From positions 1-35,640 of IMG/VR virus record IMGVR_UViG_3300044535_002285: a DNA stretch of 35,640 nucleotides. One strand, given 5' to 3'. Source of the DNA: a virus. Under the pieces are notes generated by a model. It did no database searches, was not told the DNA's origin, and saw nothing but the letters and a program-made list of their open reading frames with translations. The position numbers and the translations under genes are program-made. Each line of letters opens with the position of its first letter. The first letter of the stretch is position 1. This document shows positions 1,020 through 35,640 of the stretch, piece by piece.

Positions 1020-2225
1020 ATGAGAGACTTCTTTAAAAATTTCTTATTAGAACAAGATGAGAATATTGTTACACTAACTCCTGATCAATATACAGAAACA
1101 TTAGAAGATGTTGGAGGTATTGCGGCAAGAGTTGCAAATTTAAAACCATACAGAGGTAAGGGTATTGTTATTAATGGTAGTTTAGATCTTAGAAAATTTA
1201 AAAATGTTGGACCATTAACTGGTGTTGTTAGAGTAATGGGACGATTAGACATATCTAATACAAATGTCTCAAATATTGATGGAATTACAGTAGATGGGTA
1301 TGTTAGTAGTTGGGGATCAACAATGCATACAAATAAATTAAAACAAGAAAGAAATAAAAAACTTTCAGAATTAGCCGATTATAGAGAAAATGATGAGTGG
1401 AATACAGAAAACAAAGACGATGATTCTGAAAGAACTGAAGCATTATATGATTTTTTGGTCCAAGAAGGTATACCCACTTTATATGAAGACGACAATGGTG
1501 AAGAAGTAGAAGAAGACAAATATTTTATTTACCCTAGTGGTACTGGAACTCACGGTATTGGAAAACAATACGAATGGTTAGGTGCTGATACTCTACAACC
1601 TGACACATATGATGTTTACACTGAAGATGAGTTAGAGATTGCAGCTAAAAGATATGTTGAAAATGCAGTTGACGATATGGGTTATGATGCGTTTAGTGAA
1701 TGGGTTTGGGATCAGGCGATTGATAAAGGACAGTGGGAAAGTTGGTTAGAAGATTTTTATGAAGATATAATTAGAGATGATCCTGAAAACTATGATATAG
1801 GACTTGAATTATCTACAAATCAACAACATCAAGTTAATCAATTAAAAAAAACTATAGAAAATCTAAATAATAAATTAAAAAGTGAGGAATTGTCTGACGA
1901 AGAATACGAAAACATCGAAAGAAAAATTGAAGGTTTAGAAGAGACGATAGAAGAAATTATAGAAGATCCACAAGGTGGTTATGATGAAAGTTACATACAG
2001 AATGAAATCAATGATAGAGTTAGTGAATATGTTGATGATATTGATGATTTCATTAAACACTACGGATATGAAAAAAGTTTTATAATGGATTTTGTTGATT
2101 TAGATGAGGTTAAGGATATTATCGTAAATAGTGATGGATATGGTAATCTATTAAACTCTTATGATGGAGAAATGTTTGAAACACAGGTAAACGGTGACTG
2201 GTATTTTGTGATGAGGGCTAGTTAG
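1020..2225 (+). CDS. Acidic protein with N-terminal LRR-like segment and coiled coil
   Basis: This 401-residue acidic protein starts MRDFFKNFLLEQDE. An in-frame TTG at 1002 is less likely because the promoter-like element lies between the two. Residues about 45-90 have the alternating hydrophobic pattern of a small leucine-rich-repeat-like solenoid (NGSLDLRKFKNVG, GRLDISNTNVSNIDG). Residues about 270-320 form a strongly predicted coiled coil rich in Glu and Lys. The rest is acidic with many Tyr and Trp. The start ends in FLLE|Q, like the (I/L)xE sites that end the N-terminal segments of the proteins at 8240, 8518, 9378 and 11371, so it may be a virion-packaged protein (inference). Function unknown. 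Confidence 0.85.
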   Translation: MRDFFKNFLLEQDENIVTLTPDQYTETLEDVGGIAARVANLKPYRGKGIVINGSLDLRKFKNVGPLTGVVRVMGRLDISNTNVSNIDGITVDGYVSSWGSTMHTNKLKQERNKKLSELADYRENDEWNTENKDDDSERTEALYDFLVQEGIPTLYEDDNGEEVEEDKYFIYPSGTGTHGIGKQYEWLGADTLQPDTYDVYTEDELEIAAKRYVENAVDDMGYDAFSEWVWDQAIDKGQWESWLEDFYEDIIRDDPENYDIGLELSTNQQHQVNQLKKTIENLNNKLKSEELSDEEYENIERKIEGLEETIEEIIEDPQGGYDESYIQNEINDRVSEYVDDIDDFIKHYGYEKSFIMDFVDLDEVKDIIVNSDGYGNLLNSYDGEMFETQVNGDWYFVMRAS

Positions 2226-7405: not shown

Positions 7406-7681
7406 ATGATAAAAAACACCGTAAACCATAACATTAATATTCTCAACGAAAAATTCGGTACAATCCTTTCTGAATCTTTTGTTGATCCTATTCAATTCAA
7501 AATCTTTTTGAAGATGGTTGACGGAGCTTTGAACCTTAAAGAAGATCTTTCATTTTATGATGGTAATATGTTTTTGGTACACATTCCTCATAAAATATTG
7601 AAAGAGTCAATCATACTTACTAGTATGACTCCTATAAATATTGGAGAACAAGTTAGAAATAAATTAGAAACATTAGTGTAA
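7406..7681 (+). CDS. Protein of unknown function (91 aa)
   Basis: Begins MIKNTVNHNINILNEKFG. It is a small soluble protein of alternating helix and strand with no recognised motif. It has its own TATATTTG promoter and is followed after 1 nt by a lipoprotein gene, so the two are probably cotranscribed. Confidence 0.75.
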   Translation: MIKNTVNHNINILNEKFGTILSESFVDPIQFKIFLKMVDGALNLKEDLSFYDGNMFLVHIPHKILKESIILTSMTPINIGEQVRNKLETLV

Positions 7682-8239: not shown

Positions 8240-8506
8240 ATGAAAAAATTAATCTTAAGTGAGAAACAATATAAAAAACTCCAAAATATTATTATTGAAA
8301 GAGAAATTTTAAATGAGCAATCAAAAAGTGAAGTTATGCAAATTCAACAAAGGTTAAAGGATTGTTTTAATGCGCAACTTGGTAAATCAGGGCCTAATAA
8401 GGATGGTGTTGATGGTGTTGCTGGAGACAGAACAAAAAATGCTATTGAAACATATACCGCATACCGTTTTGATACAATTAAATCTGATGAAGGATCACAA
8501 TTGTAA
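8240..8506 (+). CDS. Small protein with peptidoglycan-binding-like domain
   Basis: The 88-residue protein begins with a helical segment MKKLILSEKQYKKLQNIII that leads to ILNE|Q (residues 23-27). Residues about 31-77 resemble the PG_binding_1 fold: IQQRLKDCFNAQL, then DGVDGVAGDRTKNAIETY, matching the family DGxxGxxTxxA pattern. It probably binds cell-wall peptidoglycan. The N-terminal segment resembles those of the proteins at 8518, 9378 and 11371, so this could be a virion component acting at the wall during entry (inference). It is first in a unit with the tandem paralogues. Confidence 0.75.
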   Translation: MKKLILSEKQYKKLQNIIIEREILNEQSKSEVMQIQQRLKDCFNAQLGKSGPNKDGVDGVAGDRTKNAIETYTAYRFDTIKSDEGSQL

Positions 8507-8517
8507 AAAATATAAAA

Positions 8518-8570
8518 ATGAGAAATAAATTAAATTTAAAAGAAGGAGAAGTCCAAAGAATCTTATCATT
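8518..8570 (+). repeat. Direct repeat, copy 1 of the shared 5' end
   Basis: The first about 50 nt of this gene recur almost unchanged at 9378-9430, including the start codon. Together with the matching 3' block this marks a tandem gene duplication. Confidence 0.85.
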
Positions 8571-9366
8571 ACATAAAAATGCTATATTAAAAGAGAGTGG
8601 TAAAAACATTTTGAATGAGGAAAGTACTTTTACTTTAAAATCAGATGTAAAATTCAAACCTAGCGAAACGAATCCGTCTTCTAACAAAATAAGGTTATAC
8701 CAAGGAACTAAGTTCAAAGTATCCACAAAAATTAAAAATTCATTAGTATCCACAAGAAAAGTTCTTGCAAATTTTCCTTCTTATGCTTCTGGATACCTTT
8801 CTACAAGTTATGAAGATAATAGGGCTTTTGTTGTATATAACTGTAAAACAAAAAATATTTATTTAATTGGATCTACAAATGAAGGAGCTAAAGAAGACTA
8901 TGACATTAACTCTAATAAAAAGGCTACTTGGAAAACTGGAGGAAGTATGCAATCTTTAGATAAATTGTGTGAAGAATCGGTTGTTAAAAATCAAGAGGTT
9001 ATCAAACCAGAACAGAAGAAACTAACAGATGATGAAAAAATTAAAAAGGCTAAAGCATGTGGACATAAAACTTGGGAAGATTATCAAGCATCAGGATGGA
9101 AATGTAAAAAAGAAAACCAAGGAGGAGAAACTGGAGATTTAAGAAATGGGACTAGTAGTAACAGATACACATTCGATTTCGAAACAATTATGAAAGCCAT
9201 TGACGATACAGGTAAATGCCCAAGAAGTGGAACAAGCGATCAAGCAGGTACTTCAGGAACGAGTGGAGTACAAGGAACTCAAGGTACAAGTAATGTTGGG
9301 GCTCCTGTTGTAATACAAAAACCAACTGTAACAAAAGATGACTTCTATCAATGGACAATGGATTAA
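8518..9366 (+). CDS. Gly-Thr-Ser repeat protein, tandem paralogue 1
   Basis: The 282-residue product has three parts. The N-terminal segment MRNKLNLKEGEVQRILSLHK ends in ILKE|S (23-27) and ILNE|E (31-35). A middle domain (about 35-160) is beta-rich with two Cys. The C-terminal part carries KAKACGHKTWEDYQ/GWKC, then FDFETIMKAIDDTGKCPRSG, a GTSGTSGVQGTQGTS repeat and the end DDFYQWTMD. Gly-Thr-Ser repeats are frequent in tail-fibre and structural proteins of Bacteroidota phages. There is no signal peptide. The next gene is a close paralogue; a virion role is likely but not shown. Confidence 0.85.
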   Translation: MRNKLNLKEGEVQRILSLHKNAILKESGKNILNEESTFTLKSDVKFKPSETNPSSNKIRLYQGTKFKVSTKIKNSLVSTRKVLANFPSYASGYLSTSYEDNRAFVVYNCKTKNIYLIGSTNEGAKEDYDINSNKKATWKTGGSMQSLDKLCEESVVKNQEVIKPEQKKLTDDEKIKKAKACGHKTWEDYQASGWKCKKENQGGETGDLRNGTSSNRYTFDFETIMKAIDDTGKCPRSGTSDQAGTSGTSGVQGTQGTSNVGAPVVIQKPTVTKDDFYQWTMD

Positions 9367-9376
9367 ATTTTAAAAA
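9186..9376 (+). repeat. Direct repeat, copy 1 of the shared 3' block
   Basis: The last about 180 nt of the gene at 8518 and a few bases beyond its stop recur at about 10020-10221 with few changes and a short insertion in the Gly-Thr-Ser region. The similarity here is far higher than in the middle of the two genes. Confidence 0.85.
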
Positions 9377-9377
9377 A

Positions 9378-10211
9378 ATGAGAAATAAATTAAATTTAAA
9401 AGAAGGGGAAGTCCAAAGAATATTGGGCTTACACAAACAAGCTATTTTAAAAGAAAATAATTATCAAGTATTGAATGAAGAACAAACATTTTCTCTAAAA
9501 GTTAATACAGATTTTAAACCATCAAGTAGTAATAGCGAGGATTACACTCTTAGACTTTATAGAGGTACAACATTTAAACCATCACCAAATATAAAAAATT
9601 CTTTAGTCACAGATAGACAAGTAAGAATTGATTATGTGTATGGTATGTTTAATTCTACTGCTGGTGCTTCCGGACTTAATAATAAGGCTTTTGTGGTTTA
9701 TAATTGTAAGACAAAAAGAATGTATACCGTCCAAAATACAAAAATAGATGAGTTTGATTATAAAAAAACAAATTGGACATATGATGCTAAGAATATGAGG
9801 TCCTTAGATAACTTGTGTTTAAATGCTGTTGAGACGGTAAAACCTGAGGTTGTGGTAAAACCTAAAACGGATGATGAAAAAAAAGAAAAGGCTAAAGCAT
9901 GTGGACATAAAACTTGGAAAGATTATCAAGCATCTGGATGGAAATGTAAAAAAGAAAACAAAAAAAATACATTTCTTGCTGCCGGAACAAGTGGAACTAG
10001 ATACTCATTTGATTTTGAGACAATAATGAAGGCAATTGACGATACAGGTAAATGTCCAAGAAGTGGAACAAGCGATCAAGCAGGTACTTCAGTAACGAGT
10101 GGAGTACAAGGAACTAGTGGAACTCAAGGTACAAGTGGTGTTGGTGCTCCTGTTGTAATACAAAAACCAACTGTAACAAAAGATGACTTCTATCAATGGA
10201 CAATGGATTAA
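9378..10211 (+). CDS. Gly-Thr-Ser repeat protein, tandem paralogue 2
   Basis: Paralogue of the preceding gene. ATG 9378 is chosen over the in-frame ATG at 9351 because it restores exactly the same N-terminus, MRNKLNLKEGEVQRILGLHK. The 277-residue product keeps the (I/L)xE sites (ILKE|N), the CGHKTWKDYQASGWKC element and a nearly identical C-terminal 65 residues, while residues about 35-160 have diverged strongly. The repeat reads GTSGTQGTSGV, with one more GTSG unit. A terminator follows directly, so 8240-10211 forms one unit. Confidence 0.85.
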   Translation: MRNKLNLKEGEVQRILGLHKQAILKENNYQVLNEEQTFSLKVNTDFKPSSSNSEDYTLRLYRGTTFKPSPNIKNSLVTDRQVRIDYVYGMFNSTAGASGLNNKAFVVYNCKTKRMYTVQNTKIDEFDYKKTNWTYDAKNMRSLDNLCLNAVETVKPEVVVKPKTDDEKKEKAKACGHKTWKDYQASGWKCKKENKKNTFLAAGTSGTRYSFDFETIMKAIDDTGKCPRSGTSDQAGTSVTSGVQGTSGTQGTSGVGAPVVIQKPTVTKDDFYQWTMD

Positions 10212-10216
10212 ATTTT

Positions 10217-10243
10217 AAAAAGGGAGTTTGACTCCCTTTTTTT
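10217..10243 (+). terminator. Rho-independent terminator
   Basis: AAAGGGAGT/ACTCCCTTT stem with a tiny loop and a T run, immediately after the stop of the second paralogue. Confidence 0.9.
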
Positions 10244-10259
10244 ATGTTAATTATTTTCT

Positions 10260-10267
10260 TATCTTTG
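10260..10267 (+). promoter_or_regulatory. Bacteroidota -7 element TATCTTTG
   Basis: TATCTTTG matches TAnnTTTG and ends 4 nt before ATG 10272. It follows a terminator, so a promoter is expected. The spacing implies a leaderless or nearly leaderless transcript. Confidence 0.7.
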
Positions 10268-10271
10268 TGGT

Positions 10272-10691
10272 ATGGAAAAAGTATTATATATCGTCAGAGG
10301 AATACCAGGTAGTGGTAAATCAACAATGGCTAAAATGTTAGTGGGTGAAGACTTTCTAGTTTGTGAGGCGGACAAATACTTTATAGATAAGGAAACAGGA
10401 GAATATAATTTTGATTTTACTAAAATCAAGGAAGCCCACAAATTCTGTCAAGATACAGTTGAGACATATATGAAGGACTCATTAGTCAATGACCAATTCT
10501 ATAGAGAGATTGCAGTATCAAACACATTCACTCAAGAATGGGAGATGGAACCTTACCTTGAATTAGCAAAGACATATGGGTACAAGACATTTTCAATCAT
10601 CGTTGAAAACAGACACGGAGGAGTAAACCAACATTCAGTTCCTGATGAAGTATTAACTAAAATGCGTGAGCGTTTTGAAATAAAATTATGA
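10272..10691 (+). CDS. P-loop nucleotide/polynucleotide kinase-like protein
   Basis: The 139-residue protein has Walker A GIPGSGKST (residues 10-18), then EADKYFIDKETGEYNF and AHKFCQ, the pattern of the AAA_33/N4BP2-like kinases related to the kinase domain of T4 polynucleotide kinase. It probably phosphorylates a 5'-OH of nucleic acid or a nucleotide; the substrate is not determined by sequence. The gene overlaps the phosphoesterase gene by 4 nt (ATGA), so the two products are likely made together. A kinase-phosphatase pair recalls the two activities of T4 Pnkp in RNA repair. Confidence 0.85.
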   Translation: MEKVLYIVRGIPGSGKSTMAKMLVGEDFLVCEADKYFIDKETGEYNFDFTKIKEAHKFCQDTVETYMKDSLVNDQFYREIAVSNTFTQEWEMEPYLELAKTYGYKTFSIIVENRHGGVNQHSVPDEVLTKMRERFEIKL

Positions 10692-11344
10692 TGAAATTTG
10701 ATAAATTATTAACGAGTGGTACGGTTTGGATTACATCCGATACTCACTACCATCACAAAAACATATGTCGAGGAGTTACTAATTGGAGAACTCAAGACGG
10801 TAAAATACCAACACACTCAACAAGGAATTTTCAAGACCTTGATGAAATGGATTCTGTGATCGTAAATAATATAAACCAAAAAGTTGGACCAAATGATACT
10901 TTAATACATTTGGGTGATGCTGCTTTTGGTGGATTCGAAATGATTGGTCAGTTCTTAGATCGACTTGTTTGTAAAAACATTCATTTAGTTTTAGGTAACC
11001 ATGATCAACACATTTTAAAAAATAGAGAGGATATCCAAGATAAGTTCTTATCTGTACAACATTACCTTGAGACTAGAATCGATGATGTTGATTTTGTTTT
11101 ATGTCACTACCCACTCCAAAGTTGGAACGGATTAAACAAAGGTGTGATCCATCTTCACGGACATGTCCATTTATCTGCTCAAAATAAATGGGGTAACGGA
11201 AAACGATTGGATGTTGGTATGGATGGTAACAGTATGTATCCATACAAAATAACTGAGATAGTTCACATGATGGATCGTCGTGAGATTGGGTCTGATTTGA
11301 GTAACGATCACCACCTTGATGATTTAGTTGGAGTTGTAGGATAA
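10688..11344 (+). CDS. Calcineurin-like metallophosphoesterase
   Basis: All family metal-binding motifs are present in the 218-residue protein: SDTHYHHKNI (residues 17-26), HLGDAAFGG (about 74-82), VLGNHDQH (about 101-108), CHYPLQSWNG and HLHGHVH. It should hydrolyse phosphomonoesters or diesters using two metal ions. Its coupling to the kinase gene suggests removal of phosphate or cyclic phosphate from nucleic-acid ends, though nucleotide or signalling-molecule hydrolysis remains possible. No signal peptide, so it is cytoplasmic. Confidence 0.93.
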   Translation: MMKFDKLLTSGTVWITSDTHYHHKNICRGVTNWRTQDGKIPTHSTRNFQDLDEMDSVIVNNINQKVGPNDTLIHLGDAAFGGFEMIGQFLDRLVCKNIHLVLGNHDQHILKNREDIQDKFLSVQHYLETRIDDVDFVLCHYPLQSWNGLNKGVIHLHGHVHLSAQNKWGNGKRLDVGMDGNSMYPYKITEIVHMMDRREIGSDLSNDHHLDDLVGVVG

Positions 11345-11358
11345 ACTATAACTCCAAC

Positions 11359-11366
11359 ATATTTAT
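11359..11366 (+). promoter_or_regulatory. Promoter-like ATATTTAT before the gene at 11371
   Basis: ATATTTAT ends 4 nt before ATG 11371, the same arrangement as at 691-699 and 6925-6938. No terminator separates it from the preceding gene. Confidence 0.5.
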
Positions 11367-11370
11367 TGTT

Positions 11371-12621
11371 ATGAGAAATATTGTTATCACCGAAAATCAA
11401 TTAAAATTAATTACAGAAGCTTTAGGGGTTCCTGAAAATATTTTGGACGCCGCCGACATGTTATACGATATTGTTGAAAAAGACATAAAATCAATAGATA
11501 GTGTCGAAGATGAATATGAATTTGATGGTGATATTGAATTTGAGTTAGGTGATAAGAAAAAAGTCAAAATTGATTCATATGAACTTAAAGTTAATATTGA
11601 AGAAATTGAAGACCAAGAAGGTGTCTTAGATATTATTTCTATGGGAATGGGAGGTGGTTTTGGATTTAATAGAGATGTTTATATGAAAGAAACAGAACCT
11701 TCAACAACTTTGGAGCTCAGTATAACTTTTGCTGTTGGTGAAAATTGGAGACCTGAACAACTGATTCAAAAAATGGAGGAGGAAAGAGATGAACATGTTT
11801 CATCTTTGGCTCATGAGATCAAACACAAATACGATAAGCAGTCAAAACAATTTGGTTTAATAGGACCTGATGCTGACTATCAGGCGACACAAAGAAGAGG
11901 TAATCTTGGAATACCGGTAATTGATAGAGTGTTCTACAGATACATGTATTACATTCATGCGATTGAAAATCTTGTTAGACCAACAGAGGTTGCTTACTCA
12001 ATGAAAAGAAAAAATATTACAAAATCACAATTTAAAGAATTTTTAGAAAATAATAGAGTTTATACAGAGTTGTTAGAAATTAAAAACTTTTCATTTGATG
12101 ATTTTATTACACAGTTAAAAGAACAAGAAGAAAGATTAGACAAACTTATTGAACATGTTAATGAGGATCCATCAAACATGACTATTGATGAAAAAATAAA
12201 CAGAGTGTTGGAAATTACTTATATTGATTTAGTAAACAACAGAATGGAATTGTTTACAATTATGACGGAGCATGCTATGGATGACTTTTTAAGATTTGGT
12301 TCGCAACTAGGGTTGTTGCCTAGTAATGCGGAAGAAAAAGTCAAACAACTTGAAAAGACAGACAAGATTAGAAATAAGTTTTTATCTCAAACAATTAAAT
12401 ATCAAAAAAACCCAACCAAGTTTTTTGAAAATGAATTTGAGAGATTTCAATATGTTGCAAACAAAATGTTAAAGAAAATATCTAAACTATATGCTATGGC
12501 TAAAGATGACGAACAAGTTAGTGAATCAATTCTAAATTGGGATCTACACCAACAAATCATGGAAAAAAAATACGGTAAAAGAAAAATTGAAACAAAATAC
12601 AAAAATTGGAATCTTAAATAA
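11371..12621 (+). CDS. HExxH zinc metalloprotease-like protein
   Basis: The 416-residue protein contains LAHEIKHKYD (HEIKH at residues 148-152), the zinc-binding and catalytic motif of zincin peptidases. A later Glu (E199 in AIENLVRPTE or E206) could be the third ligand. The C-terminal half is helical and charged. The N-terminus MRNIVITENQLKLITE|A looks like the (I/L)xE-terminated segments of the neighbouring proteins and of T4 internal head proteins, so it may be packaged in the virion or act during head maturation (inference). I do not recognise the peptidase family more closely. No signal peptide. Confidence 0.75.
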   Translation: MRNIVITENQLKLITEALGVPENILDAADMLYDIVEKDIKSIDSVEDEYEFDGDIEFELGDKKKVKIDSYELKVNIEEIEDQEGVLDIISMGMGGGFGFNRDVYMKETEPSTTLELSITFAVGENWRPEQLIQKMEEERDEHVSSLAHEIKHKYDKQSKQFGLIGPDADYQATQRRGNLGIPVIDRVFYRYMYYIHAIENLVRPTEVAYSMKRKNITKSQFKEFLENNRVYTELLEIKNFSFDDFITQLKEQEERLDKLIEHVNEDPSNMTIDEKINRVLEITYIDLVNNRMELFTIMTEHAMDDFLRFGSQLGLLPSNAEEKVKQLEKTDKIRNKFLSQTIKYQKNPTKFFENEFERFQYVANKMLKKISKLYAMAKDDEQVSESILNWDLHQQIMEKKYGKRKIETKYKNWNLK

Positions 12622-12979: not shown

Positions 12980-13138
12980 TAATCTAAAGTTATAGTTTGC
13001 TCAATATATGGGGTCTATTAACAACTAATCTCAATTATATTAGTATTTATTTGTGAACTCAACCTGCCCGTGGAATATGGGGGTTTCCTAAAAAGATTCT
13101 TCAAGAGAGTAAATAATTTTATTTTATTTATTTTTACT

Positions 13139-15004
13139 ATGAAGAATATATTGATTGTATTTTTTGTCCTATTTTCATCTTTTTTATTTTCTCAATCATG
13201 TCTTCACACTATTCAACGAACTGACACATGGGGTGATGGTTGGAATGGAGGAGCGGTATCCGTTTCTGTTAATGGTGTAACCGTTTTATCTAATTTAAGT
13301 TGTGTGGGGTACGGACCTACTAGTTCTACATTTATGGCGGCAGTAGGGTCAACAATTAGAGTATTCCGAACCACTGCAGGACTTTATCCTACAGAAATGC
13401 GCATACGAGTTCTCAATGGTGCGGGAACCACCATAATCAATACTATTCAACCGGTTGCTGGAACCGCAACTACGGGAGGACAAACCGTATTAGCAAGTTG
13501 TGCGGGAGCTGTTGCAGGTCCATGCACTAATACAACTTTATATGGGTCTGCAATCGCACCATCAACACCAACAACTGTAATCATTAGTACTTGTCAATTT
13601 CAAGGAGAATATAGTCCAATTTATTCTTGTATTGCAGGACAAACATATCAATCAGCTTACAATTTAGGTGGATTCATAACGGTTAGATCAGGAACATTTA
13701 ATGGTACTGTAGTCGCCAGCGGAAACGCCCCATTAAATTGGGTTTGTCCGTCCTCAGGAACATATTTCGTTCATTACAACACAAATAATACTTGTGGTAC
13801 CGCTATGAACTGCGGAACATCATCTATTTCTTGTATAACTTGTTTACCACCACCACCACCATCAAATGATTTAGTTTGTAATGCAACAACAATATCTTGT
13901 GGTCAGACGATTGCAGGGACTACGGTTAATGCAACAACATCAGGTTATGGAGAATTGGGGTCTTGTGGTATTGTTCAGTCATATCCCGGTGTTTGGTATA
14001 AGATAATAGGAAATGGACAGATTATGACGGCATCACTTTGTGTTACCGCATGGGATAGTAAGATTTCTGTTTTTTCAGGAACCTGTTATTCACTTACATG
14101 TGTTGGTGGTAATGATGATAACGGACCTGGTTGTGGGGGAACTTCAGCATCATACTCTTGGAACTCGGTTAATGGGACAACATATTGGATTTTAGTTCAT
14201 GGTTATTCATCAAACTCTGCGTTTTCCGTGTCTTTAAATTGTGTTAATCCACCAACACCAGGACCATGTACAAACACAATAAATTATGGAGCTCAATTTA
14301 TGCCTGTGTTAGGTGGAGCACCATATGAATCTATTTATTGTCAATACGCTGGAGAATACTCAACATGGTATAATGCAATTTCAAATACACCTTATGTTGC
14401 AACTTCTTCAGTTGGAACAGATTGGATTACGGTTAGACAAGGGACTTACAATGGTACGGTTCTTGCAACAGGAACGGCAGTTGTTAATTTCACACCAAAC
14501 GCCACAGGAACAATATTTATTCATGTTAACACAAATGCTTATTGTGACATCCAATCAAGTTGTAGGGATGTTGCAATGTCAAGAATATCTGCATTACCTA
14601 TTGAGTTATTATATCTTGAAGGTAATAAAGAAAGTAATTATAATTTAATAAGATGGGCAACTGCGACTGAACATAATACCAGTCATTTTATTGTTGAAAA
14701 AAGTGAAGATGGACATGAATGGAATTCAATAGGTGAAGTTCAGGCTTCACAAAACTCCACTCAAGAAATTAAATACAATTTAATTGATCAAAATGTAAAA
14801 CAATTATACAATTATTATCGTCTTAAACAATATGATATAGACGGGATGAATCAAACTTACGGGCCAATTCAGATCAATAATACTGATAAAGTAATTACCG
14901 TAATAAAAAGAATTAACTTAGCAGGACAAGAAGTTAATGAAAACACCACAGGAGTTGTTATTGAAATTTATAGTGACGGATCTATAAAAAGAACAATAAA
15001 ATAA
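13139..15004 (+). CDS. Secreted multidomain protein with T9SS-like C-terminal region
   Basis: A 621-residue protein from ATG 13139; the in-frame GTG at 13070 would bury the signal peptide. Residues 1-19 (MKNILIVFFVLFSSFLFSQS) are a Sec signal. Then come a Cys-containing beta domain (TDTWGDGWNGG), two repeats starting GPCTNT with TVRxGTxNGTV cores (about residues 122-235 and 376-490), a PPC-like domain between them, and a C-terminal region (ALPIELLYLEG, YYRLKQYDIDG, then INLAGQEVNENTTG and IEIYSDGSIKRTIK) like those of T9SS-exported Flavobacteriales proteins. It should be exported to the host surface. Function unknown; adhesion or surface masking is possible. Unusual in a phage and probably taken from a host. 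Confidence 0.85.
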   Translation: MKNILIVFFVLFSSFLFSQSCLHTIQRTDTWGDGWNGGAVSVSVNGVTVLSNLSCVGYGPTSSTFMAAVGSTIRVFRTTAGLYPTEMRIRVLNGAGTTIINTIQPVAGTATTGGQTVLASCAGAVAGPCTNTTLYGSAIAPSTPTTVIISTCQFQGEYSPIYSCIAGQTYQSAYNLGGFITVRSGTFNGTVVASGNAPLNWVCPSSGTYFVHYNTNNTCGTAMNCGTSSISCITCLPPPPPSNDLVCNATTISCGQTIAGTTVNATTSGYGELGSCGIVQSYPGVWYKIIGNGQIMTASLCVTAWDSKISVFSGTCYSLTCVGGNDDNGPGCGGTSASYSWNSVNGTTYWILVHGYSSNSAFSVSLNCVNPPTPGPCTNTINYGAQFMPVLGGAPYESIYCQYAGEYSTWYNAISNTPYVATSSVGTDWITVRQGTYNGTVLATGTAVVNFTPNATGTIFIHVNTNAYCDIQSSCRDVAMSRISALPIELLYLEGNKESNYNLIRWATATEHNTSHFIVEKSEDGHEWNSIGEVQASQNSTQEIKYNLIDQNVKQLYNYYRLKQYDIDGMNQTYGPIQINNTDKVITVIKRINLAGQEVNENTTGVVIEIYSDGSIKRTIK

Positions 15005-33950: not shown

Positions 33951-35640
33951 ATGAAACAATTGAAAGGTCTGTTATTTGGACTTTTATTTTTATTACCGTT
34001 TATCGGTAAAGCTCAAGTACCTGCGGCACCATCAAATGGATTGTGGGGTATCATTGCATCCCAATATCAAGTTGGGACAACGGCACAAGGCACAACTGAT
34101 GCGAAGATTACATTACAAAACACAACCCTTACAAAATTTGCGGGGGTTCAGTTTAGAGTATTCTACGATAAGGTAGCGTTTACAAATGCAACAGTATCTC
34201 TTATTGGATCGGCAACAAACTTAGACCTTCAGTTTATTACAAACACAACGAATGGTTTCATTACCATTACTTTGGTTTATACAGGTCCAAGTGCAACTTA
34301 TACGATCCCAAATGGTGAGAGATTTCTAATTACCTTTACTCATGCACCAGCAGCTACATTTAACAACTTAGCTTCCATATCCAACTTAACTTGGACAGGA
34401 CCTCAGTCTTTTACACCGTACGCTGCGAAACAAGATGGTATGGATACTACATTAAGTGTTCATAACTATGGTGGTGTATTCACTCCTGTTAACTTCGCCT
34501 ATCATGGAACATTCACAAATGTTACAGGTACTTCGGCTAAATATTTAAATTTAGCATTACAAAGAAGACCATTCGGCGGAAACACTTGGACGCAACATTC
34601 TACTTATGTTACAGATATCAACGGAGACTTCAATATTTCAGTTCCATTGGATACAACATATTGGGATGTAAGATTAGCAATTCAAGGTGATACAATGGGT
34701 GTGGGTAATATTATTTCATCAACAGATGCTCAACAAATCAATCAGTGGGTTCTTGGAAACGGTACCATGACTGGTTTTGATTATTATACGGCAGATGTTA
34801 ACGGATCTAATAATACAACAATATCTGATGTGTGGGGTGTATTTGGTAGAATCTCAGGTAGATTTACTCAATGGCCTAACAACACAAAAGATGTTAAGTT
34901 CTTTACTGTATCTGAATACACAACAATCAACGGATCGGCAACTAACTACACATCAACAATTGCAGGTGTAACAAACTTTACATTTGACATCTTACCGGGT
35001 CAACCTGACTCTGTGGTTTATTATGTTATGGTTCCTGGTGATGCTAACGGTACAGGTTACAACATGGCTCGTGTTACTCCTATTGAAGTATTGGTTGGAC
35101 CAATGCCAGGTTTAGAGTCACAAATCTATAATGTGATCGATACTAAAGTTGAGTATGATTTTCCAACATCAACAATCGAAGTAAATGTACCTAACATTTC
35201 TGTGGATGCTGGAAACTTGGTTGAGTTACCCGTTAAAGTTTTTACAAATGGAAATGAGTTATCATCACTTCAGTTTGGATTGAAATATAATACAGACCTA
35301 TTAGAATTCAAAGGAGTTAACTCAACATCAAATGCTATGCAATGGATTACATACATAAATCCAAATGATGGCCAAATTGATTGGGGTGGATTCGACCCTA
35401 CAAATAACGAACAACCATTAGTTAATGGTGATGAGGTTGTTACTTTACAATTTATAGCAAAACAACCACAGAATCTATGGGAAGAAAGTCCTCTTTATAC
35501 TTCTTTGAAGTTTGCAGGAACAACTCAGTCTAACGATTTAACAATTACACCGACAAACGGAATACTCCAAGTATTAAAAAGTAATATGGGTGTGGTAATT
35601 GGAAACACAATCTCTGTAGTTCCTAATCCTGTTGTTGATG
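33951..35640 (+). CDS. Large secreted protein with cohesin-like and dockerin-like parts (C-terminus cut)
   Basis: ATG 33951 opens a frame to the window edge (563 residues visible). The start MKQLKGLLFGLLFLLPFIGKAQ is a Sec signal peptide. Beta-sandwich regions at about 30-140 and 390-520 resemble cohesin-like adhesion domains (LKYNTDLLEFKGV). Between them are dockerin-like segments with STDAQQINQWVLG and ADVNGSNNTTISDVWGVFG, the latter a possible calcium loop. The last visible residues, ISVVPNPVVD, are the usual opening of a T9SS type A sorting domain. It is probably exported to the host surface. With the protein at 13139 it is the second such gene in this window. Function unknown. Confidence 0.85.
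   Translation, partial: MKQLKGLLFGLLFLLPFIGKAQVPAAPSNGLWGIIASQYQVGTTAQGTTDAKITLQNTTLTKFAGVQFRVFYDKVAFTNATVSLIGSATNLDLQFITNTTNGFITITLVYTGPSATYTIPNGERFLITFTHAPAATFNNLASISNLTWTGPQSFTPYAAKQDGMDTTLSVHNYGGVFTPVNFAYHGTFTNVTGTSAKYLNLALQRRPFGGNTWTQHSTYVTDINGDFNISVPLDTTYWDVRLAIQGDTMGVGNIISSTDAQQINQWVLGNGTMTGFDYYTADVNGSNNTTISDVWGVFGRISGRFTQWPNNTKDVKFFTVSEYTTINGSATNYTSTIAGVTNFTFDILPGQPDSVVYYVMVPGDANGTGYNMARVTPIEVLVGPMPGLESQIYNVIDTKVEYDFPTSTIEVNVPNISVDAGNLVELPVKVFTNGNELSSLQFGLKYNTDLLEFKGVNSTSNAMQWITYINPNDGQIDWGGFDPTNNEQPLVNGDEVVTLQFIAKQPQNLWEESPLYTSLKFAGTTQSNDLTITPTNGILQVLKSNMGVVIGNTISVVPNPVVD

Follow-up and report, generated by a model that had tools for sequence, protein, structure and literature searches.

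The targeting sequences of bacteriophage T4, carried by IPI, IPII, IPIII and the Alt propeptide, are processed by the prohead protease gp21 at an L/I-x-E motif (PMC9026906). In IPIII, the first ten residues suffice for incorporation into the head, with residues 4 and 7 mattering for targeting and residues 8 and 10 for processing (PMC9026906). N-termini of comparable design occur in the window, that is, the whole 35,640-base virus record analysed here, which has no head genes and is a fragment of a T4-like jumbo phage. A preliminary description listed five proteins, starting at 1020, 8240, 8518, 9378 and 11371, whose short N-terminal segments end in (I/L)xE and were proposed to target them to the capsid as in T4. 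All five segments were found in place, and a sixth candidate, absent from that list, begins at 7406 (Table 1).

The tags in the window belong to class B (8240 and 11371), class E (8518 and 9378) and an 11-residue type (1020). The main domains had been described as unrelated. Shared tags do sit on unrelated bodies, but the 8518 and 9378 proteins are paralogues over their full length, so that their tags are not independent of each other. The N-terminus of the 8518 protein reads MRNKLNLKEGEVQRILSLHKNAILKE, then SGKNILNE, then E, and one or both of its possible sites are kept in the homologues. The 9378 protein begins with MRNKLNLKEGEVQRILGLHKQAILKE, then NNYQVLNE, then E; the first in-frame ATG of this ORF lies at 9351, upstream of the conserved N-terminus.

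Table 1. Predicted tags and the protein bodies that follow them in the window.
Feature	Position	Strand	Detail
Tag of 1020 protein (401 aa), 11 aa, MRDFFKNFLLE then Q	1020..1052	+	Homologues with other tags
1020 body, predicted cargo	1053..2225	+	No credible family match (Pfam, PHROG)
Sixth candidate tag, 23 aa, KFGTILSE then SFVDP	7406..7474 (gene 7406-7681)	+	31 homologues
Tag of 8240 protein, 26 aa, class B, MKKLIL...EREILNE then Q	8240..8317	+	23 homologous N-termini
8240 body, PG_binding_1-like domain, predicted cargo	8318..8506	+	Pfam PF01471, E 0.0035, below the curated cut-off
Tag of 8518 protein, 34 aa, class E	8518..8619	+	Two possible sites, AILKE26 and NILNE34
8518 body, Gly-Thr-Ser-rich C-terminal part	8620..9366	+	Paralogue of 9378; no Pfam family
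Tag of 9378 protein, 34 aa, class E	9378..9479	+	Sites AILKE26 and QVLNE34
9378 body, paralogue of 8518	9480..10211	+	62% identity over full length
Tag of 11371 HExxH protein, 16 aa, class B, MRNIVITENQLKLITE then A	11371..11418	+	Predicted cut E16/A17
11371 body, putative metallopeptidase, predicted cargo	11419..12621	+	Invariant H148-E149-x-K151-H152

The ends of the tags are conserved within the families of these proteins. The P1 Glu shows little or no variation, being present in 31/31 distinct N-termini of the 7406 family, 23/23 of the 8240 family and 45/46 of the 11371 family; P3 is almost always Ile or Leu (Leu/Ile in the 7406 family, L/I/V in the 8240 family, I/L in 45/46 of the 11371 family), and P2 is free, with five kinds of residue in the 7406 family alone. 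The N-termini collected for the 1020 family include contig-edge fragments and were left out of these counts. The 27-row alignment of the 11371 family shows an invariant E16 and either I or L at residue 14, and in a 304-kb relative the tag, though longer, keeps such an ending, LLNE/AVGVP. Tag length in the 8240 family is mostly 25–26 residues and 8 residues in two members. The tags look like amphipathic helices, as they would if they were uncleaved docking or localization helices for the tail, a membrane or a replication compartment, with (I/L)xE reflecting helix composition. A P1 Glu and a P3 Ile/Leu that are fixed around a free P2, however, are more in keeping with a protease site than with a helix face.

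In the AlphaFold (AF2) model of the 11371 protein, residues 1–18 have pLDDT values below 50 and the body after them is modeled with more confidence; this would be expected for a detachable segment, although by itself it proves nothing. The body is called a putative metallopeptidase from its HExxH motif only, which is invariant across 27 sequences. It has no credible Pfam or PHROG family, and the fold search with the model gave no credible solved fold (Foldseek best E 0.15; VIA best Z 5.7, for the helical part only, which shows neither a new fold nor a function). The 8240 protein is small and peptidoglycan-binding-like. Two further stretches of the window, 33951-35639 and 13070-15004, encode large secreted-looking proteins with hydrophobic N-termini that resemble Bacteroidetes surface proteins, and these apparently lie outside the tag system.

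A search for relatives of the 11371 protein gave 71 loci, including contigs G001 (272,576 bases), G002 (304,365 bases), G003 (153,130 bases) and G004 (136,112 bases); tblastn of the 11371 metallopeptidase, a Gly-Thr-Ser protein and a class A tag peptide against the phage collection gave no matches. Fifty of the 58 ORFs called in the window have a homologue in G003 (89% identity) and 35 have one in G001 (median identity 72%), largely in the same order in both. G001 can thus reasonably represent the parts of this phage that lie outside the window. The hosts of these tag-bearing large lake phages are predicted to be Bacteroidetes.

The extent of tag sharing was assessed in G001 and G002 by a blind comparison that uses no motif. 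Every ORF of 80 residues or more contributed its first 30 residues to pairwise comparisons within each genome, and a pair was counted at a score of at least 35. This yielded 140 pairs in G001 and 320 in G002; removing those with similar remaining bodies left 137 and 313, respectively, whose bodies are without detectable similarity. Internal 30-mers gave 16 and 36 pairs and shuffled N-termini 14 and 26. K/E-rich N-termini might resemble each other by chance, and [IL]xE is indeed a common motif, found at residues 8–40 in ∼40% of untagged proteins; with both controls about an order of magnitude short of the N-terminal counts, chance similarity is refuted, and we give it practically no weight. The main connected groups comprise 56 proteins in G001 and 70 in G002, a few of them evidently accidental members such as glycosyltransferases and a thymidylate synthase. 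Collecting the proteins with such N-termini, as the preliminary description had suggested, therefore confirms in the relatives that the shared tags are real and more extensive than was first reported. Applied to T4, the same method recovers the known IPII/IPIII pair, and a pattern of the IPII/IPIII type also finds gp61.1 (MKTFKEFIKE). The start of gp61.1 (L121:18966-19130, 54 aa, MKTFKEFIKEDMVAGDS...) is of the T4 capsid-targeting type, and gp61.1 is possibly a minor internal protein.

Five tag classes were distinguished: A (MKKIIRLTESDLTRIVKRVINE), B (MKIIITESQ...), C (MKELIRHILKE), D (MNxLNEEIxRIKxLMGLLxE) and E (MRNKFILTEEExxRILxLHK...(I/L)xE). A stricter count by class assigns tags to 42 of 278 ORFs in G001 and 56 of 332 in G002. 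One protein, adjoining the capsid gene (L093:1671-2969, equivalent to G002:141671-142969), begins with the tag MLNDIIKKILRE and also contains a class A tag, MKTIRLTESELVRIVKKILNE, in its interior, an arrangement suggestive of a fusion between two tagged genes.

Tag classes defined by regular expressions are partly circular for a test of the end motif, and the test consequently relied on an unclassified positional profile, on family conservation and on tag swaps. In the profile, which uses no class definition, the density of [IL]xE at residues 7–30 is about double that further into the protein, across the 473 ORFs of at least 120 residues in G001 and G002. The motif is not universal: an [IL]xE that ends within residues 8–40 is missing from ∼20% of the tagged proteins of G002 and 5% of those of G001. 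Class A was traced through IMG/VR by a degenerate DNA pattern scan; among the matches listed there are 184 distinct tags at 109 loci, 180 of the 184 ending in [ILVM]xE and 170 strictly in I/L. These tags end at exactly two positions, four residues or about one helical turn apart, and P1′ is mostly N, Q, E, S or D, not Ala, again among the matches listed.

Three tag swaps between homologous proteins locate the boundary of the module. The proteins at G001:248141 and G002:42375 have bodies that are 43% identical and start with MKPYINEEIFRIKSIMGLLKE/QTISLPI and MKDLIRQILRE/DISTSLPI, respectively. The 1020 protein of the window (MRDFFKNFLLE/QDENIV) corresponds to G002:299123 (MKKVIRLTESDLIKIIKTKLNE/EESEFI), with bodies 24% identical, and another homologue, L061, has yet another tag, MLKNIKLKENKLLTLLKDIILE, on the same body. 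The third pair, G001:251189 (MKNLIRRIIKEETTKLLNE/SGIR) and G002:5790 (MVMRKNLILE/SGLR), has bodies that are 65% identical. In all three, the junction between tag and homologous body lies at the (I/L)xE motif; that the tag ends where the homologous body starts is a second point against uncleaved helices.

The shared N-termini could also be functionless traces of duplication or recombination, with 5′ ends copied between genes, and the tagged genes do sit in runs of small genes, where copying is likely. Among class A tag copies within one genome, however, half or more of the synonymous sites differ (pS >0.5) and the peptide is kept, with pN/pS values of 0.39 (7 copies) and 0.46 (17 copies). This indicates that the class A peptide is held by selection and does not merely reflect recent copying. 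The peptide class also recurs across many contigs, and functionless copying is accordingly considered very improbable.

The preliminary description had suggested looking for a gp21-like protease elsewhere in the genome. Neither a protease nor a capsid gene lies within the 35.6-kb window, and a search of it with the gp21 family profile gave no match, which says little since the window is a fragment without the head region. Such a protease is present in both large relatives, where Peptidase_S77 was matched in G001 (E 9.9e-24) and G002 (E 3.0e-23) together with a gp23-type major capsid protein (E 1e-64), the two genes being clustered with those for terminase, portal and a scaffold-like protein. 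Among Protein Data Bank structures, the T4 gp21 entry 5jbl is a match to the protease (E 2e-14). His85 and Ser140 of T4 gp21, which we take to be its catalytic residues, are conserved in the proteases of G001, G002 and Flavobacterium phage vB_FspM_immuto. In two other contigs of 334,687 and 348,671 bases (L365:8939 and L366:8309, both on the + strand), the protease reads RRAYGEC YKPDALILTETGWK where its relatives read ALSELNHPESS; the insert looks like an intein at the active-site His motif, the ORFs being 384 and 607 residues long vs ∼240.

Capsid proteins from 20 contigs were aligned with those of G001, G002, immuto and T4. In the column of the T4 gp23 cleavage site (SFLTE/A), (I/L)xE is present in 23 of the 24 proteins, immuto having VSE; P2 varies (N, T, S, K, Y or D), and P1′ is A, S or T in the contigs. 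The capsid alignment thus predicts the specificity of the protease independently of the tags. The presence of the same motif at the maturation site of the capsid protein is a third argument against the tags being uncleaved helices, a reading that we regard as unlikely. Among the matches listed, the S77 protease was found in 15 of 18 tag-bearing contigs >100 kb, including 9/9 of those >240 kb. Among control contigs, collected by a thymidylate synthase (thyA) pattern, the protease was found in 9/17 and a tag in 1/17, that one with the protease. The co-occurrence is in the expected direction and is weak alone because many controls are T4-like too.

The tagged bodies mostly have no recognizable family. 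Pfam searches with 20 large tagged proteins gave only a phage lysozyme domain above the cut-off, in one protein (E 1e-18), and several tagged proteins have hydrophobic, membrane-like stretches; both features would also suit the uncleaved helices considered above. The 29 recognizable G001/G002 orthologues (replication and nucleotide enzymes, terminase, portal, tail and baseplate proteins, the capsid protein and the protease) were without a tag (0/29), as were the recognizable enzymes of the window. The preliminary description had noted that a targeting role would be at odds with the motif occurring equally in early enzymes. The 29 orthologues show no such distribution, but some probable enzymes, a HAD-like phosphatase and a DHH protein, are tagged or tag-like, so the rule is not one of "never on enzymes".

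Taken together, the tags are probably capsid-targeting propeptides that work as in T4 and are cut by the gp21-type protease, in a much expanded system. The shared modules, the end motif, the capsid site, the protease, the exchange of modules, the selection and the distribution that support this are all directly observed in the sequences. We infer that tagged proteins are packaged and cleaved. The amphipathic tag would bring a newly synthesized protein to the core or scaffold of the prohead and dock it there; judging from the motif and the enzyme, the protease would then cut after the Glu of (I/L)xE, with loss of the tag, while it matures the capsid protein at a site of the same type. More tentatively, and at one further remove, we infer that the freed proteins may remain with the DNA inside the head and that at least some may be ejected into the next host. 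Compared with the few internal proteins of T4, the system would have grown to some 40–70 proteins per genome, with at least five tag classes exchangeable between protein bodies. The chances appear evenly balanced that ∼15% of the genes feed head proteins through several interchangeable tag classes, perhaps docking to different core partners, and that dozens of different proteins are delivered per particle.

Functions are known for only a minority of jumbo phage genes. With a readable packaging tag, dozens of the uncharacterized proteins in each genome could be grouped as predicted head cargo, a single testable class that would span a widespread freshwater group and other contigs with the same tag, and head contents would become predictable from sequence. 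Large lake Bacteroidetes phages appear to tag dozens of unrelated proteins, which suggests an unusually large protein cargo per particle and points to protein delivery with the DNA as one of the main strategies of the T4-like jumbo phages rather than a peculiarity of T4.

The proposed system resembles that of T4 in having a short N-terminal segment on unrelated bodies, an (I/L)xE end, a gp21-type protease and the same cut motif in the capsid protein (PMC9026906). It differs in scale (tens of proteins vs about four in T4), in having at least five tag classes and in its predicted Bacteroidetes hosts. The T4 parallel originally drawn is partly supported, in that nearly all of the sequence tests agree with it (the protease, the capsid site, the swaps at the motif and the untagged replication and tail proteins); it does not extend to the tags themselves, no class of which resembles T4 MKTYQEFIAE beyond the cleavage motif. 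A system that works like that of T4 is consequently better supported than a homologue of it.

The giant phages phiKZ and SPN3US also have many head proteins with N-terminal propeptides cut after Glu (PMC9026906, PMC10052503), but the motifs there are S/A-x-E and A-x-E, and most SPN3US propeptides are 111–254 residues long. The cultured 160-kb immuto phage has an S77 protease (gp070), a capsid protein (gp066) and small shared N-terminus families of its own (for example, MENFDLKKFLVENKLTxNSxxLxE and MKKSQLRxIIKE). It differs in its fewer tagged proteins, in other tag sequences and in the capsid site, VSE vs LINE; a literature search found no virion proteomics of immuto. In freshwater Bacteroidetes phages encoding bS21, of up to 331 kb, the terminase, capsid protein, prohead protease and portal are clustered as in G001 and G002, and the parts of that report consulted mention no N-terminal tags (PMC9723584). 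The tag strings were not found in the text of papers, nor was an earlier description of an expanded tag system in the open-access literature, although one may exist. As far as that literature goes, the principle is that of T4 and already known; what is new is how many proteins are tagged, the presence of several tag classes and the group of hosts.
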